Source: a virus. From it: a DNA stretch of 29,893 nucleotides. Each line of letters opens with the position of its first letter. The stretch's first letter is position 1. Positions 19,296 through 28,752 of this stretch are shown one piece after another. Both the position numbers and the translations under genes were made by a program. The stretch is from the IMG/VR virus record IMGVR_UViG_3300034374_009426, positions 1 to 29,893 of that record; one strand, 5' to 3'. The notes under the pieces were generated by a model. The model was given only the letters and a program-made list of their open reading frames with translations. It did not search any database and was not told the DNA's origin.

Positions 19296-19568
19296 ATGAC
19301 CGAACTTCAAAAAATGCGGGCTATAGCTTTAGAGCGAGCCGGTAATAAATGCGAGTGGCCTAAATGCAATAATTTTGATCAAAAATTAGAAATGGCGCAT
19401 ATACACGGTATAGGTATGGGCGGCAATCCTACGCGTAAATTCGATATAAATAACGTAGCTATGTTATGTAAGTTACACCACGATATTTACGACGGCCGTA
19501 CTATATCACTAGCAAAAAAAGAATATCGCATACTGTTAAAATCTTTTTTAGATTATGAACGACAATAA
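19296..19568 (+). CDS. HNH endonuclease-like protein
   Basis: A 90-residue HNH protein starting directly after the previous stop. C19 and C24 (CEWPKC), H35/H37 (AHIHG), the DINNVAMLC segment and C58/H61 (CKLHH) form the HNH zinc and active-site framework. It may be a free-standing homing-type nuclease or serve DNA processing. It differs in position and sequence from the HNH protein at 29475. It overlaps the next gene by 14 bases. Confidence 0.8.
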   Translation: MTELQKMRAIALERAGNKCEWPKCNNFDQKLEMAHIHGIGMGGNPTRKFDINNVAMLCKLHHDIYDGRTISLAKKEYRILLKSFLDYERQ

Positions 19569-19737
19569 TTACACGCAAAAGGAAATGACGGCCAAAATAA
19601 TGCTTGATATAGAGAAAATTTTTAATAAGTTAGATGAACTCCAAAAAGATATAAATACTAGACCTACTAGAGCGGAAATATACGGTTGGATAATAGCCGG
19701 TATATCTATAGCTACTTTAGTTAACGTTTTAATGTAG
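19555..19737 (+). CDS. 60-residue single-span membrane protein
   Basis: A charged N-terminal coiled-coil region (KIMLDIEKIFNKLDELQKDI) is followed by one membrane helix at about residues 44-59 (GWIIAGISIATLVNVL). This layout resembles class-III-like holin or haemolysin-XhlA-type proteins. It is the first of five small overlapping genes. The stop overlaps the next GTG. Confidence 0.65.
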   Translation: MNDNNYTQKEMTAKIMLDIEKIFNKLDELQKDINTRPTRAEIYGWIIAGISIATLVNVLM

Positions 19738-19952
19738 TGAAAGCGCAAGTTAATTTATCTCAAATATTGCAAGGCGGTTTAGCAGCCTTAGTAGGTTGGC
19801 TTTTTAAAACCGTAAACGACTTGCAGCAATTAGCAGCCGTTTATCAAATTCAAATAGATAAATTAGAGCAAAATATAGTAGACCTAGCTATGCGCGAAAA
19901 AGAATTAAATAACGCCTTAACTGAAGTTTTAATTAAATTAGGCGGAAGTTAA
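19737..19952 (+). CDS. 71-residue membrane/coiled-coil protein
   Basis: The start is GTG 19737, overlapping the preceding TAG. One hydrophobic segment (LQGGLAALVGWLF, about residues 11-23) is followed by a long heptad-rich helix to the C-terminus (IQIDKLEQNIVDLAMREKEL). Its orientation is the reverse of the previous gene's helix/coil order. A lysis or envelope role is inferred from its neighbours. Confidence 0.6.
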   Translation: MKAQVNLSQILQGGLAALVGWLFKTVNDLQQLAAVYQIQIDKLEQNIVDLAMREKELNNALTEVLIKLGGS

Positions 19953-20123
19953 ATGCTAGATACCGCTAAAAAAACTATTGAAGATTGGTCTAAACCATTT
20001 ATAGCTTGCTTGTTAGGTATGACTAGCGGTATAGATTTAACACCCGGCCATTTATTTATTGCTTTTAAAACGGCTAGTATTACTTTAATATTAGGTTTAG
20101 TAATAAATAAAATTAAAGGTTAA
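19953..20123 (+). CDS. 56-residue holin-like protein
   Basis: A small ORF beginning directly after the previous TAA. Two hydrophobic segments (about residues 16-27, FIACLLGMTSG, and 36-52, FIAFKTASITLILGLVI) are separated by a short polar turn, and the tail is basic (NKIKG). The two-span, short, basic-ended design is holin-like. Confidence 0.6.
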   Translation: MLDTAKKTIEDWSKPFIACLLGMTSGIDLTPGHLFIAFKTASITLILGLVINKIKG

Positions 20124-20126
20124 ATA

Positions 20127-20207
20127 ATGGACTTTTTTATAGTAATAGGAGTAATAATAGGTATTAACTATCTAAGTTGGTGGTTAATAAAACACGATAA
20201 AATATAA
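20127..20207 (+). CDS. 26-residue hydrophobic peptide
   Basis: A tiny ORF three bases after the previous stop: a short N-terminus, one hydrophobic helix (FFIVIGVIIGINYL) and a basic end (IKHDKI). Its placement in an unbroken row of small membrane genes, with a GTTAAATA-type gap, is the main support. A coding role is plausible but not certain. Confidence 0.45.
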   Translation: MDFFIVIGVIIGINYLSWWLIKHDKI

Positions 20208-20209
20208 TT

Positions 20210-20359
20210 ATGGACTATATAGTAGGTTTTTTATTAGGTTATTTTTTAAAAGAAATTAGTACTTTTATTAAAAGAATAAGCGATCAAGATTGGTCTAACC
20301 GTAATTATTTTGATAAAGCTTATAAATGGCTAGATTTAGAAGAAGACGATTTACCTTAA
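20210..20359 (+). CDS. 49-residue membrane-anchored acidic protein
   Basis: A small ORF two bases after the previous stop. A hydrophobic N-terminus (YIVGFLLGYFL) is followed by a polar region with WSNRNYFDKAYKW and an acidic end, LEEDDLP. The end resembles the acidic SSB-type tip but lacks the final phenylalanine, so this is probably coincidence. Function unknown. Confidence 0.55.
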   Translation: MDYIVGFLLGYFLKEISTFIKRISDQDWSNRNYFDKAYKWLDLEEDDLP

Positions 20360-20372
20360 TAAATTATTTATA

Positions 20373-20378
20373 TATAAT
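20373..20378 (+). promoter_or_regulatory. Candidate -10 box before leader ORF
   Basis: TATAAT within the 13-mer TATAATAAAGTTA, which is repeated exactly at 27667, where it lies directly before a gene. Transcription from here would begin near 20385 and reach the terminator at 20450, giving an RNA of about 95 bases. Confidence 0.4.
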
Positions 20379-20384
20379 AAAGTT

Positions 20385-20482
20385 AAGTATAAGCAACAAA
20401 AGGAAAAGAAATTTGACTAAAGTTGGGGTTTATACTCTCAAAATGCACTAAAAAGCCCGGTTTAATTACCGGGTTTTTTTTA
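20385..20482 (+). ncRNA. Possible short transcript with 12-residue leader ORF
   Basis: Between the -10 box at 20373 and the terminator at 20450-20479 lies a strong ribosome site, AAAGGAAAAG (20399-20408), then TTG at 20413 opening a 12-codon frame (MTKVGVYTLKMH) ending at 20451 inside the terminator's first arm. Translation to the stop would disturb the hairpin, as in attenuation. It could instead be a small regulatory RNA, or just the end of the late operon. Confidence 0.3.
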
Positions 20483-20485
20483 TTT
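20450..20485 (+). terminator. Strong rho-independent terminator
   Basis: AAAAAGCCCGGT (20450-20461) pairs with ACCGGGTTTTTT (20468-20479; one G-U pair) around TTAATT, followed by more Ts. This probably ends the late structural operon. Its core is shared with the terminator at 10952. Confidence 0.85.
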
Positions 20486-20513
20486 ATAAGCTTTTAATGT
20501 CTTAATTACCCGA

Positions 20514-20528
20514 TATACTTAATTTAAG
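20514..20528 (+). promoter_or_regulatory. Candidate promoter and overlapping palindrome
   Basis: TATACT at 20514-20519 could be a -10 box for the gene at 20551. The palindrome CTTAA-T-TTAAG at 20518-20528 overlaps it and the expected start of transcription, so it could be an operator. No clear -35 box is seen. Confidence 0.3.
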
Positions 20529-20550
20529 TAGTTAAACGAAAGGGTTGCGT

Positions 20551-20823
20551 ATGACAAATATGTCTTTAGATGACTTTGCTTTAAGTAAAATAGATTATAA
20601 AAATAAAAGAAAATTCGAAAATAGATATCCAAAAGAAACCGAAATCATTATTAATTTATTAAAGCAAGCGCTAATTAAAAAAAATGAAACTAATTTAAGT
20701 GTTTATAGTTATAAAACTATAGCCGAATACTGCGTAGAAGTTTTAAATTATAAAATGGTACATAAAGAAACTTTACGTAAAGTTATTAGCCGTATAGCGC
20801 AAGATAACGGGTGCGAATTATGA
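20551..20823 (+). CDS. 90-residue helical protein, possibly DNA-binding
   Basis: ATG 20551 is chosen over an in-frame TTG two codons earlier because AAAGGG sits six bases upstream. The protein is basic and helical (LSKIDYKNKRKFENRYPKE), and residues 50-90 (YSYKTIAEYCVEVLNYKMVH, then KETLRKVISRIAQDNGC) look like a winged-helix or helix-turn-helix unit. It opens a new operon after the main terminator, a usual place for a regulator. Its ATGA overlap joins it to the metallophosphoesterase. I do not recognise the family. Confidence 0.65.
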   Translation: MTNMSLDDFALSKIDYKNKRKFENRYPKETEIIINLLKQALIKKNETNLSVYSYKTIAEYCVEVLNYKMVHKETLRKVISRIAQDNGCEL

Positions 20824-24355: not shown

Positions 24356-24503
24356 AAAATTATTTTTATTAGGTAGTTATAAATTTTTATCGTATCTTAA
24401 AACTATTATTAACAGACTTATGTACTACTTTTTAGTAAAGCTAAATAGTAATTATAAGAGGGTAGAAGTAAAAAGTATAAAGTGGAAAAAACGAGGTAAA
24501 TAA
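24345..24503 (+). CDS. 52-residue basic protein
   Basis: ATG 24345 is chosen because GAAAGGGA lies six bases upstream; a longer frame from 24306 has no such site. The protein is very basic with a hydrophobic first half (KKLFLLGSYKFLSYLKTII) and a lysine/arginine-rich end (SIKWKKRGK). It may be an amphipathic membrane-associated or nucleic-acid-binding peptide. It overlaps its neighbours on both sides. Confidence 0.5.
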   Translation: MAIKKLFLLGSYKFLSYLKTIINRLMYYFLVKLNSNYKRVEVKSIKWKKRGK

Positions 24504-24937
24504 TGAATAAAGAGCAATTAATATTAAAGCAGGTTAGCTTAAAAGCGGCTGCTAGTTTAGGTGGTAGCGTAGACGACGTTATAGCTAACGCGGAAAAATT
24601 TAACGCGTGGCTAAATGAGGGCGTTGATCAAAACGAAACTAAAAAAGTAGCGGGTAATAGACCGGTATTTGAGCCTAAATGTCCGGGTTGCGATAGTTAC
24701 GTATGGGATAATAGAGAAACCGCTACCGGTACTCAACCGGTTTGGCGTTGTAAAAACGATGAGTGTACCGCCGGCGGCTTTAGTAAAAAATATAATAAAA
24801 ATATGGCGTGGGCTAGTTGGGACGAAGACGAGTTTACTAATCAAGAAAATAAGTTTTTGGCCGAAAATGATAAACCTAGCACTACCGAAGAAATAGTTGA
24901 AAACCCTATAGTTAACGACGACGACTTACCGTTCTAA
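24503..24937 (+). CDS. Zinc-ribbon protein with SSB-like acidic tip
   Basis: A 144-residue protein. A helical N-terminus (residues 1-40) is followed by a zinc ribbon with C60, C63, C83 and C88 (CPGC...CKNDEC) and an acidic, unstructured end finishing NDDDLPF. The last six residues, DDDLPF, match the conserved C-terminal tip of bacterial single-strand binding proteins (DDD(I/L)PF), which recruits primase, helicases and polymerase subunits. No OB-fold is evident, so this may be an adaptor mimicking SSB rather than an SSB. It lies directly before replication genes, with TAATG overlaps. Confidence 0.7.
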   Translation: MNKEQLILKQVSLKAAASLGGSVDDVIANAEKFNAWLNEGVDQNETKKVAGNRPVFEPKCPGCDSYVWDNRETATGTQPVWRCKNDECTAGGFSKKYNKNMAWASWDEDEFTNQENKFLAENDKPSTTEEIVENPIVNDDDLPF

Positions 24938-25266
24938 TGACTAAAAACGAATTTGCTACTAATTTAAAGTGGGCTAGCATACGTTGGCCTAACATAAATT
25001 TAGATAATGATAGCTTAAATTCGTTATATGTAGACTTTAAAGGCTTTAGTACTACTAGTTTAGCTAAAGCCTTAAAGCTTTTATTTGATAACGGTAACAC
25101 TTTTTTAGAGTGGCCTAAGTTACTTAAATTAACTAAAGATATGTATAACGAAGAATTATTAAGCTTACCTAGATTAGAACAACCTAAAGTAAAAGACGGG
25201 TTAAAAGAATATTTAAAAGCTAATAATTTTAAAAGTATAAAAGACGCAATAAAGGGTAAAAGATGA
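24937..25266 (+). CDS. Possible helicase loader-type replication protein
   Basis: A 109-residue helical protein between the SSB-tip protein and the initiator, with overlaps to both. Its layout, NLKWASIRWPN then helices ending in FLEWPKLLKLTKDMYNEE, loosely resembles small helicase loader/inhibitor proteins of phages (G39P type). The function is inferred mainly from position; low confidence in the family. Confidence 0.5.
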   Translation: MTKNEFATNLKWASIRWPNINLDNDSLNSLYVDFKGFSTTSLAKALKLLFDNGNTFLEWPKLLKLTKDMYNEELLSLPRLEQPKVKDGLKEYLKANNFKSIKDAIKGKR

Positions 25267-25976
25267 GTGAAAAAATAAACGTAAATTATGATATACCTAC
25301 ATTTACTATCGTACCTCATTGGGTAGCCGAAATATTAAAGCCTACCGAATTAGCTACGTACGTAGTATTAGGTAAATACGCCGATAATAAAACTAAAGAG
25401 TGTTGGCCTAGTTTAAATACTATAGCTAAAGATTTAGGCCGATCAAAAACCGCTACTATAACCGCTATTAAAGGTTTAGCCGATAAAGGCGTATTAAAAA
25501 TAGAAAAGCGTAAAAATGATAAAGGCGATTGGGATAGAAACCACTATACGCTTATGGTTAATAAGGGTAGTCAAGAAAACTTAACCACCCCTAGTAAAGA
25601 AAACTTAACTACGGGTAGTAAAGAAAACTTAACTCTAACTATACCTAATATAACTAGACCTATTGAACTATATAACAAGCAAACTCAAAACGCTTATAAG
25701 GATAAAATAGTAGAGGTATGTAAATTAGATAAGATTAGCCGTAATATGTGGGGGCAAATTGAAAACACCGCCAAGCAATTATTCGACGCCGGCGTTACTT
25801 TAGAAGAAATACCGGTATTAGCTAAAAATATAGTTTTAACTTACGGCGAAAAAACACTAACGCACCGTAGCTTACCTAACCATTTAGAGCTAATACAGGG
25901 CGTTAAAAGTTTAGAGCCAAAAGATTTTAAAAAAGCTAGTGATCAAAATAAATTAGAAAGGTGGGCTAATGAGTGA
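25263..25976 (+). CDS. Replication initiator with winged-helix domain
   Basis: A 237-residue protein. Residues about 15-95 form a winged helix-turn-helix typical of phage replisome organisers (PHWVAEILKPTELATYVVLG, CWPSLNTIAKDLGRSKTATI, LADKGVLKIEKRK). A linker of three eight-residue repeats, S(Q/K)ENLTxx (103-126), follows, then a helical C-terminal domain (about 140-230) that would contact helicase or its loader. The linker DNA is three direct 24-base repeats, so the gene probably contains the replication origin, as lambda O does. No polymerase or helicase gene is present, so it should recruit host enzymes. Confidence 0.8.
   Translation: MSEKINVNYDIPTFTIVPHWVAEILKPTELATYVVLGKYADNKTKECWPSLNTIAKDLGRSKTATITAIKGLADKGVLKIEKRKNDKGDWDRNHYTLMVNKGSQENLTTPSKENLTTGSKENLTLTIPNITRPIELYNKQTQNAYKDKIVEVCKLDKISRNMWGQIENTAKQLFDAGVTLEEIPVLAKNIVLTYGEKTLTHRSLPNHLELIQGVKSLEPKDFKKASDQNKLERWANE
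25569..25640 (+). repeat. Three 24-base iterons: candidate replication origin
   Basis: Direct repeats start at 25569, 25593 and 25617, each beginning AGT(C/A)AAGAAAACTTAAC and keeping the codon frame. A+T-rich DNA (about 25637-25680) follows on the right, as a melting region would. The position within the initiator gene parallels the lambda origin. Confidence 0.65.
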
Positions 25977-26349: not shown

Positions 26350-26483
26350 TGAAAGATTATGTATTTGAAGTTAGTTTTATAAAAACTATAAAAGCCGATA
26401 CGATAGATAACGCTTTAAAGGGTATAGCTGATAAAACTAGCACTATAAACGAGTGCAAAAAAATTGAATTAATAGAGGAATAG
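26349..26483 (+). CDS. 44-residue small early protein
   Basis: An ORF whose ATG overlaps the previous TAA (TAATG) and which ends three bases before the next ATG. A beta-alpha-beta pattern (KDYVFEVSFIKTIKADTIDN, ALKGIADK, KKIELIEE) resembles small ferredoxin-like folds found in phage early regions. Function unknown. Confidence 0.6.
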   Translation: MKDYVFEVSFIKTIKADTIDNALKGIADKTSTINECKKIELIEE

Positions 26484-26486
26484 ATA

Positions 26487-26747
26487 ATGGTAGAAGATAG
26501 TTACATTAAGGAATTAAATAAAAAAGTTAAGCTGCATAAAAACCCGCCTTATAAAAAAGTAGTAGTAACGGCAGAAATTACTATGTGGCTTGAAAGCGAA
26601 AAAATTAATATAGAATACGCTAAAAGTTGCGCCGAGTTTTTAATTAACGCCGGTAAAACTAGACGCGTAGATTTTACACAAGTAGACGGCCGCGAAGTAC
26701 TAGACAATATTACATACGGCAAAGTTAAAACTTATAAATATGATTAA
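26487..26747 (+). CDS. 86-residue early protein
   Basis: This gene follows the previous one by three bases, with GAGGAA about 12 bases upstream of its ATG. The first half is basic (KELNKKVKLHKNPPYKKVVV); the second has EYAKSCAEFLINAGKTRRVD. No motif recognised. It overlaps the next gene by 8 bases. Confidence 0.6.
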   Translation: MVEDSYIKELNKKVKLHKNPPYKKVVVTAEITMWLESEKINIEYAKSCAEFLINAGKTRRVDFTQVDGREVLDNITYGKVKTYKYD

Positions 26748-27228
26748 AGCGTGTATTTTACTTTATGCAGCGATAGTTAGTAATTTTAGCGTAGGTATAA
26801 CGCCAACTATTAACGACTTAGATAATTTAAGCGAGTGTTACGAAAGCTTACCGGGTAAATGTTTAGCTTATAGTACTTTACTTGTTGAACATTTTGATCA
26901 AGATAATTTAGAAACCGCTTTTAAAATTATGTGGTGCGAAAGTAGGGGTTTACCTAACGCTTATAGGTGGGAGGATAATGATAGCGGCCTATTTCAATTT
27001 ATACCGCGTACGTACGGGTGGGTTAAAGATAATAGCGACTTACCTTATTGGGATTATCCTATTGGCGATACTTACGCGCAGTTTATCCCGGAAAATAATA
27101 TAAAAGCGGCCGCTATATTAGTGCAAGATTTACATAGTTATAGTCCGTATTGGAAACCGTTTAAAAGTTCCAAAAATTGTTGGAAAGATACTAAAACCTT
27201 TTTAAAACTAGTAGAGTTAGAAAAATGA
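26740..27228 (+). CDS. Secreted transglycosylase-like protein
   Basis: A 162-residue protein with an N-terminal signal or anchor (MIKACILLYAAIVSNFSVG) followed by an SLT/lysozyme-like core: the likely catalytic glutamate E67 in MWCESRG, then DSGLFQFIPRTYGW (about 81-94), the classic GLFQ(F/I) block of soluble lytic transglycosylases, resembling also the Rpf/transglycosylase-like folds of Actinobacteria. It would cleave glycan strands outside the membrane. It sits in the early region, not beside the endolysin. It may act in the wall during infection or release, or block other phages. The ATG overlaps the preceding gene. Confidence 0.8.
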   Translation: MIKACILLYAAIVSNFSVGITPTINDLDNLSECYESLPGKCLAYSTLLVEHFDQDNLETAFKIMWCESRGLPNAYRWEDNDSGLFQFIPRTYGWVKDNSDLPYWDYPIGDTYAQFIPENNIKAAAILVQDLHSYSPYWKPFKSSKNCWKDTKTFLKLVELEK

Positions 27229-28104: not shown

Positions 28105-28752
28105 ATGAGCTGGCTTAACAGGGCTGCGTGTAAAGATTTAGATACTAATTTATTTATTAACCCTAGTCGTAAAAAGTACACGGATCAAGATATATGGGCT
28201 ACTAATCGTATGTGCCGGGACTGTCCGGTTAATTTAGATTGCTTAACTTACGCCTTAGATGACGACTTAGAATACGGCTTATATGCACTCCCGGAGCGTG
28301 TTAGACGCCGTATAAGAGATAAAAGTAGGTTAGCGGCGTATATGTTAACTACTTTTAAAACTATGGACGTAATAGACCCTACGTTTAATAAAGAGGGTAA
28401 ATTACTTAAAAAGCGCTGCCTAAGATGTAATCGCTACGTTAAAGGTTATAGTAAAGATAATACTAATTGGGGTGGCTTTAATCATATATGCGTTAGCTGT
28501 TATATAAATACTAAAGATAAAAAGCGCGTAGATAAATTATTAGATAGAGATAAGGCTAGCCAATCTATGCCTATATTTGACCATTACGGCAGATTAGAAA
28601 GCAAAAAATGTACTAAATGTAGTATTAGGCAACCCGCTAATAACTTTAGTAATCGTAAAGCAGGTATAGGCGGTAAAACCTCGTGGTGTAAAAAATGTAC
28701 GTTAGCTAACTTAAAAAAATGGTTAGCCGAAAAAAAAGAATATGAAATATAA
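28105..28752 (+). CDS. WhiB-like regulator fused to two zinc ribbons
   Basis: A 215-residue protein. Residues 1-72 are a WhiB domain: cysteines C9, C37, C40 and C46 (the last three in CRDCPVNLDC) would hold a [4Fe-4S] cluster. The family's GVWGG turn is replaced by GLYAL before the basic ERVRRRIR tail. WhiB proteins bind the host sigma factor and control transcription. Two CxxC...CxxC units follow: C105/C108 with C129/C132, and C169/C172 with C195/C198. Typical WhiB proteins are 80-130 residues, so this extension is unusual. TAAAGT at 28093-28098, six bases before the ATG, fits a leaderless -10 (TANNNT). Confidence 0.85.
   Translation: MSWLNRAACKDLDTNLFINPSRKKYTDQDIWATNRMCRDCPVNLDCLTYALDDDLEYGLYALPERVRRRIRDKSRLAAYMLTTFKTMDVIDPTFNKEGKLLKKRCLRCNRYVKGYSKDNTNWGGFNHICVSCYINTKDKKRVDKLLDRDKASQSMPIFDHYGRLESKKCTKCSIRQPANNFSNRKAGIGGKTSWCKKCTLANLKKWLAEKKEYEI

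Follow-up and report, generated by a model that had tools for sequence, protein, structure and literature searches.

Replication origins embedded in the genes of their own initiators are already known from phage lambda and from staphylococcal plasmids. In lambda, gene O carries the iterons in its central part, each an imperfect inverted repeat of 19 bp; an A+T-rich tract follows, and two iterons together with that tract are enough for unwinding (PMC7466680). The staphylococcal plasmid pSK41 carries four Rep boxes inside rep; the linker is dispensable as protein, and the C-terminal domain of Rep binds primase (PMC5703833). In the pPR9-type Rep, an HTH_36 (PF13730) N-terminal domain and its origin replace the N-terminal domain of pSK41, and the mini-replicon works (PMC5703833). 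In mycobacteriophages, an origin has been suggested to lie inside repA or immediately upstream of it (PMC7157519).

The locus described here lies in a virus record of 29,893 bases (IMG/VR IMGVR_UViG_3300034374_009426, positions 1 to 29,893), the whole of which is referred to below as the window. The locus is best read as a theta origin embedded in the initiator gene, with the same placement as in lambda O but a protein nearest in kind to the HTH_36 chimera of pPR9 and pSK41 Rep. As at ori-lambda (PMC7466680), inverted-repeat iterons occupy a central part of the initiator gene, with an A+T-rich tract beside them and a loader gene (here a probable one) adjacent; the two loci differ in that lambda has four iterons rather than three, other half-sites, and its loader gene downstream of the initiator instead of upstream. 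The original prediction of a lambda-O-like origin in the initiator gene is supported, with the refinement that the protein, although it would work like lambda O, is of the HTH_36 kind: a Pfam scan up to E=1 gave no match to Phage_rep_O (PF04492), though a PHROG named O-like does match. With pSK41 Rep, of the RepA_N type, the locus shares a central position of the origin in the gene and a separate C-terminal domain, and the N-terminal domain of pSK41 Rep is a winged helix that binds Rep boxes with A+T tracts (PMC5703833); it differs from pSK41 in the number of sites, four there, and in the lack of any RepA_N (PF06970) match in the same scan. The pPR9-type Rep has in common with the window an HTH_36 DNA-binding domain, akin to phage replication proteins, in an exchangeable cassette of N-terminal domain and origin (PMC5703833), but belongs to a plasmid, carries the pSK41 C-terminal domain and has a control region upstream of rep.

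The initiator gene and its iterons

The initiator matched HTH_36 in the Pfam scan (PF13730, E=2e-13, 50 bits against a cut-off of 25), a family found in all 20 of 20 aligned members of the initiator family, and it matched PHROG_270 (replication initiation protein, E=6e-18) and the O-like PHROG_391 (E=2e-14). Its AlphaFold2 model, of modest overall confidence (pLDDT 65), contains two domains (Table 1) and a linker (residues 101-135) that is predicted to be disordered (pLDDT <50) and is mostly encoded by the repeats. A PDB sequence search gave no useful match. With Foldseek, neither the initiator nor the 109-aa product of the gene upstream had a match at E<=0.001, and statements about the fold of both are based on a second look with VIA-align. 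In that comparison the winged helix aligned with the staphylococcal initiator 4pt7_B at Z 9.6 (104 residues, rmsd 4.9) and 4pql scored the same, level with many unrelated winged helices.

Three in-frame 24-base repeats had been predicted in the linker between the winged helix and the C-terminal domain, and they are present as described: their 16-bp cores span 25570-25633 inside the open reading frame, with start-to-start spacings of 24 and 24. Nowhere else in the window does GTMAAGAAAACTTRAC occur exactly, every other site having at least two mismatches, and Tandem Repeats Finder gave the tract (25558-25634, period 24, 3.2 copies) a score of 105, the top score in the window. Each core has the form of a dyad, GTMAAG-AAAA-CTTRAC, in which 6-bp inverted arms flank AAAA. 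Together, the repeats and the modelled domain boundaries place tandem dyad iterons within the coding sequence, between the DNA-binding and C-terminal domains.

Table 1. Features of the initiator locus (positions in the window)
Feature	Position	Strand	Details and basis
Zinc-ribbon protein	24503..24937	+	144 aa, ends NDDDLPF, same operon; translation
Probable helicase loader	24937..25266	+	109 aa, overlaps initiator start; AlphaFold2 pLDDT 86, fold match
Replication initiator gene	25263..25976	+	ORF, 237 aa: HTH_36 winged helix, linker, helical C-terminal domain
Winged-helix DNA-binding domain	25317..25553	+	residues 19-97; AlphaFold2 model
Iteron 1	25570..25585	+	GTCAAGAAAACTTAAC, imperfect dyad, arms 5/6; repeat and dyad analysis
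Iteron 2	25594..25609	+	GTAAAGAAAACTTAAC, arms 5/6; repeat and dyad analysis
Iteron 3	25618..25633	+	GTAAAGAAAACTTAAC, arms 5/6, right edge 3 bp before heptamer 1; repeat and dyad analysis
Low-stability stretch, probable DNA unwinding element	25630..25674	.	nearest-neighbour energy
Heptamer 1, probable unwinding element	25637..25643	+	AACTATA, 3 bp past last iteron
Heptamer 2	25652..25658	+	AACTAGA, 15 bp on; heptamer analysis
Heptamer 3	25666..25672	+	AACTATA, 14 bp on, other reading frame; equivalent place in intact relatives
Helical C-terminal domain	25677..25970	+	residues 139-236, exchangeable between relatives; AlphaFold2 model

Conservation of the linker among relatives

Scans of IMG/VR yielded 34 relatives, at about 36 to 84% identity. 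Several lie on contigs of 28.5-30.7 kb and so probably represent nearly complete genomes that are alike in size. The relatives were arranged as group A (the window, L001-L008, L177, L178, L186 and L187, with the more diverged L188 kept separate), group B (L009-L023) and group C (L203-L207), with L202 standing apart. Group A has three or four copies of the repeat, all in phase 1 and reading SKENLTTP or similar. At 14 loci of group B (L009-L022), the first copy is GTCAAGAAAACTTGAC or one base off, and its reading, in phase 2, is VSRKLD; the distance in group B from the first copy to the second is 23 bp, not 24, and the second copy is in phase 1 (K/Q/T-EN-x-T). The first copy in group B nevertheless has a mean identity of 0.89 to the best phase-1 copy, as compared to a mean of 0.53 and a maximum of 0.63 under synonymous recoding (2000 trials). 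Where the encoded residue is the same, codon identity is also greater in the linker than in the rest of the gene, both in group A (0.90 versus 0.65, p=4e-6) and in group B (0.97 versus 0.69, p=2e-12).

Dyad symmetry follows the same pattern. The first copy forms a palindrome of 18 bp, TGTCAAG-AAAA-CTTGACA, in most members of group B. Across the family, 54 of 103 copies have arms that match at 5-6 of 6 positions, compared with 0.7% of the other positions in these genes; the second and third copies are weaker dyads (3-4 of 6) in several relatives. When codons were recoded with the protein held fixed, mean arm matches fell from an observed 4.4-5.0 to 2.6-3.4 (p<0.001 for each set, the window alone included), with the mild bias that iteron positions in relatives were picked partly by their GT/AC ends. 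The symmetry of the three window copies was reached in none of 2000 such codon-redrawn trials.

These comparisons indicate that the linker is conserved in relatives as DNA rather than as protein, because the motif is kept across a change of frame, the linker codons are more conserved, and the dyads exceed what recoding gives. The original prediction had named relatives with a repeat kept in protein but not in DNA as evidence against itself; we found the opposite, the DNA motif being kept where the frame changes. Slippage alone could likewise carry DNA across frames. Recent slippage or homogenization, however, does not explain the pattern in group B, because the copies within one genome differ while each copy is conserved between genomes.

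The arms also change in concert. In the divergent L202 both are altered together (GTAACG-AAAA-CGTTAC), and both have changed in L188 (GTAGTG/CTCTAC) and in group C (GTAT/ATAC). Both-arm changes occupied 15 cells, a count equalled or exceeded in 2 of 500 shuffles, which is significant but not overwhelming, in a test uncorrected for kinship. Paired changes of this kind are the mark of a site that is presumably bound by a dimer.

The relatives further show what the iterons are inherited with. L001 and L005 are 97% identical in the N-terminal domain and 99% in linker DNA but only 45% in the C-terminal domain, and L002 and L187 are 100%, 93% and 51% identical in the same three parts. Since the N-terminal domain and linker DNA are shared while the C-terminal domain is exchanged, the iterons travel with the DNA-binding domain; in the chimera of pPR9 and pSK41, N-terminal domain and origin likewise move as one cassette (PMC5703833). 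An origin can be argued for cheaply, from sequence alone, by combining repeats that are kept when the frame changes, dyads altered in both arms, and iterons co-inherited with one domain.

The adjoining DNA and neighbouring genes

The original prediction had A+T-rich DNA following the repeats. The enrichment itself is modest: A+T makes up 70% of 25634-25693 and on average 63% of the genome, and some 25% of all genome 60-mers equal or exceed the former value. By nearest-neighbour energy, however, the low-stability stretch of Table 1 ranks with the least stable 1.9% of 45-mers in the genome. This DNA holds a heptamer, AACTATA or a one-base variant of it, three times, with spacings of 15 and 14 bp (16 and 15 bp in group C), and the 3-bp gap between the last iteron and the first heptamer is constant in 15 of the 15 members listed. 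The third heptamer is in a different reading phase from the first two in groups A and B and in L202; group C has phases 2, 0 and 0, so that three phases occur family-wide and two within a gene. In IMG/VR, a two-heptamer pattern occurred in just 21 stretches, of which at least 16 belong to the same initiator family. The low stability of the duplex and the conservation of the three heptamers suggest that an unwinding element probably adjoins the iterons.

Immediately upstream, the 109-aa gene product had no Pfam or PHROG family match over cut-off. With VIA-align it was closest to the SPP1 loader G39P (1no1; Z 8.5, rmsd 1.8, 64/67 residues) and to lambda P with DnaB (9oa1_Y; Z 8.0), the next of 566 aligned chains scoring 6.5. 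For a helical domain, a Z of about 8 is only marginal, but the two best-scoring chains both come from helicase loaders of phages, and the gene stands in the expected place; we therefore read its model as a probable helicase loader of the G39P/lambda P fold. The absence of a polymerase or helicase gene, as predicted, was borne out: DnaB_C, DNA_pol_A and Helicase_C had no match in the window or in nine relatives (ten records of ~30 kb, with positive controls). The accompanying idea that host replication enzymes assemble at the origin needs amending, in that the host would not act alone, given the probable phage loader whose gene overlaps the start of the initiator.

The zinc-ribbon protein of the same operon had no notable Pfam or PHROG family match. 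Its C-terminus resembles the acidic tail of SSB, and relatives end in (D)LPF, APF or PPF; it is possibly a phage SSB, though with no recognizable match to an OB-fold. The initiator region is flanked by two copies of a 17-bp sequence in direct orientation (16 of 17 bases shared; 24868-24884 and 26429-26445, 1.56 kb apart), which may be due to chance. Slightly downstream, a lytic transglycosylase-like (SLT) gene (26740-27228) keeps its position in many relatives.

Proposed function, wider occurrence and host

We consider it highly probable, on the sequence evidence, that the repeats are initiator-binding iterons of a phage theta origin embedded in the initiator gene: as a DNA element they are well supported, and a role in an origin is strongly suggested. 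We infer binding, melting, loader action and a replication start at this locus, with the proposed order of events as follows. First, winged-helix dimers would bind each 16-18-bp dyad through the half-sites GTMAAG/CTTRAC around the central A-tract. Next, three or four dimers set 24 bp apart would form an O-some-like complex, the strain of which would open the low-stability DNA next to it, where the three AACTATA repeats lie. Plasmid initiators hold the repeated 13-mers of their unwinding elements as single strands (PMC4081077), and by analogy the heptamers may be held in a similar way. Finally, the neighbouring G39P/lambda-P-like loader, perhaps acting through the C-terminal domain of the initiator, would recruit the host DnaB helicase, followed by host primase and polymerase. 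GC skew, put forward earlier as a means of mapping the origin, gave no origin signal: there is no switch point along the window, because all genes run one way.

The iterons could be real while the main origin used in infection lies elsewhere, in which case this locus would belong to a pair of origins or would serve only at an early stage. Some phages do have two origins, SPP1 being an example, and an A+T-rich stretch with short ORFs is found at about 19569-20545. We judge this unlikely, as the iteron has no further copy in the window and the repeats found at 19500-20650 are weak, have two copies each and do not resemble the iterons; the A+T-rich DNA at 19.6-20.5 kb was rejected as an alternative origin for lack of iteron-like repeats.

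It is also quite improbable that the repeats bind the initiator but serve as an operator (for autoregulation or as a transcription road-block) or as a partition or packaging site. Conservation as DNA and dyad symmetry indicate a protein-binding site and are silent on its purpose, dyads bound by winged helices are typical of repressors, and the phage encodes a ParB-like sequence (147-1469). The repeats are, however, deep inside a coding sequence, low-stability DNA with three fixed heptamers adjoins them, a probable helicase loader gene is next door, and proven origins have the identical layout (PMC7466680, PMC5703833). That the repeats are simply a flexible protein linker made by slippage, with the likeness in DNA a by-product, fits the predicted disorder, the variation between three and four copies in 24-bp steps and the A+T-biased codon usage, but is scarcely credible in light of the same DNA being read in different frames, the more conserved linker codons, the dyads in excess of synonymous recoding, and the group B copies that differ within a genome and are each conserved between genomes.

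An origin embedded in the initiator gene, the reading we prefer, may extend to more distant phages. Partial tblastn matches of ~30-34% identity were found to the initiators of Arthrobacter phages Kovu, Salgado and Altadena, Pseudanabaena phage Pam5 and Caudovirus D_HF5_3. All five (L248, Kovu; L249, Pam5; L250, D_HF5_3; L251, Altadena; L252, Salgado) have DNA repeats in the linker, of 23, 24, 43 or 45 bp, the sequences of which are unrelated to the window iterons and several of which are palindromic. In Kovu, a gene annotated 'helicase loader' follows the HTH_36 initiator. The Pam5 linker repeat (e.g. GAGGGGTCAGAATGTGACCCCC) lies in an initiator gene that is itself unannotated. These repeats suggest a widespread layout. 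Whether HTH_36 initiators of phages and plasmids generally bear their own origins as linker dyad iterons, a portable self-targeting cassette in which half-sites change rapidly with the domain, we regard as an evenly balanced question; if they do, origins could be read straight from the initiator genes of uncultured viruses.

The genome, 29.9 kb at 37% G+C, contains an enlarged WhiB gene (28105-28752), with a WhiB-like domain fused to a cysteine-rich C-terminal part that weakly matches endonuclease VII and Lar-like PHROGs. The first phages of Candidatus Actinomarinales have 29 kb, 35.5% G+C and a WhiB of twice the normal size (PMC7771536). Size, G+C content and enlarged WhiB all fit, and the virus is probably marine and actinobacterial, though the resemblance is no more than a lead; for the terminase, the nearest match is Pontimonas phage phiPsal1 (32%). 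Searching a phage collection gave no near DNA relatives, and scanning genome contigs with the initiator alignment gave no relatives and hence no host or prophage link. In the literature searched, we found no replication origin for these ~30-kb uncultured phages; the present locus offers a concrete candidate for a group that probably infects streamlined marine Actinobacteria.

Several further observations were made during the searches. The ParB-like part of the gene at 147-1469 is N-terminal and fused to a DNA methyltransferase, and the adjoining gene (1456-2166) matches a PHROG 'threonine dehydratase'. A scan of IMG/VR with a single-copy iteron motif was swamped by probable chance matches. Two-copy matches to GAAAACTTRAC outside the initiator family comprised mostly intergenic pairs about 35 bp apart and one unrelated initiator-like gene (L157), and were set aside as a different thing. 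Such TTTAGAAAACTTAAC-like pairs, about 35 bp apart and mostly non-coding, occur in L144, L147-L149, L151, L152, L154, L159-L164, L167-L172 and L174; their layout is conserved across many phage contigs that look unrelated, and a terminator-like hairpin often comes directly after them. Finally, a 280-aa initiator-like protein of another family has its own GAAAACTTAAC repeats inside the gene (L157:2379-2423), in mixed frames.
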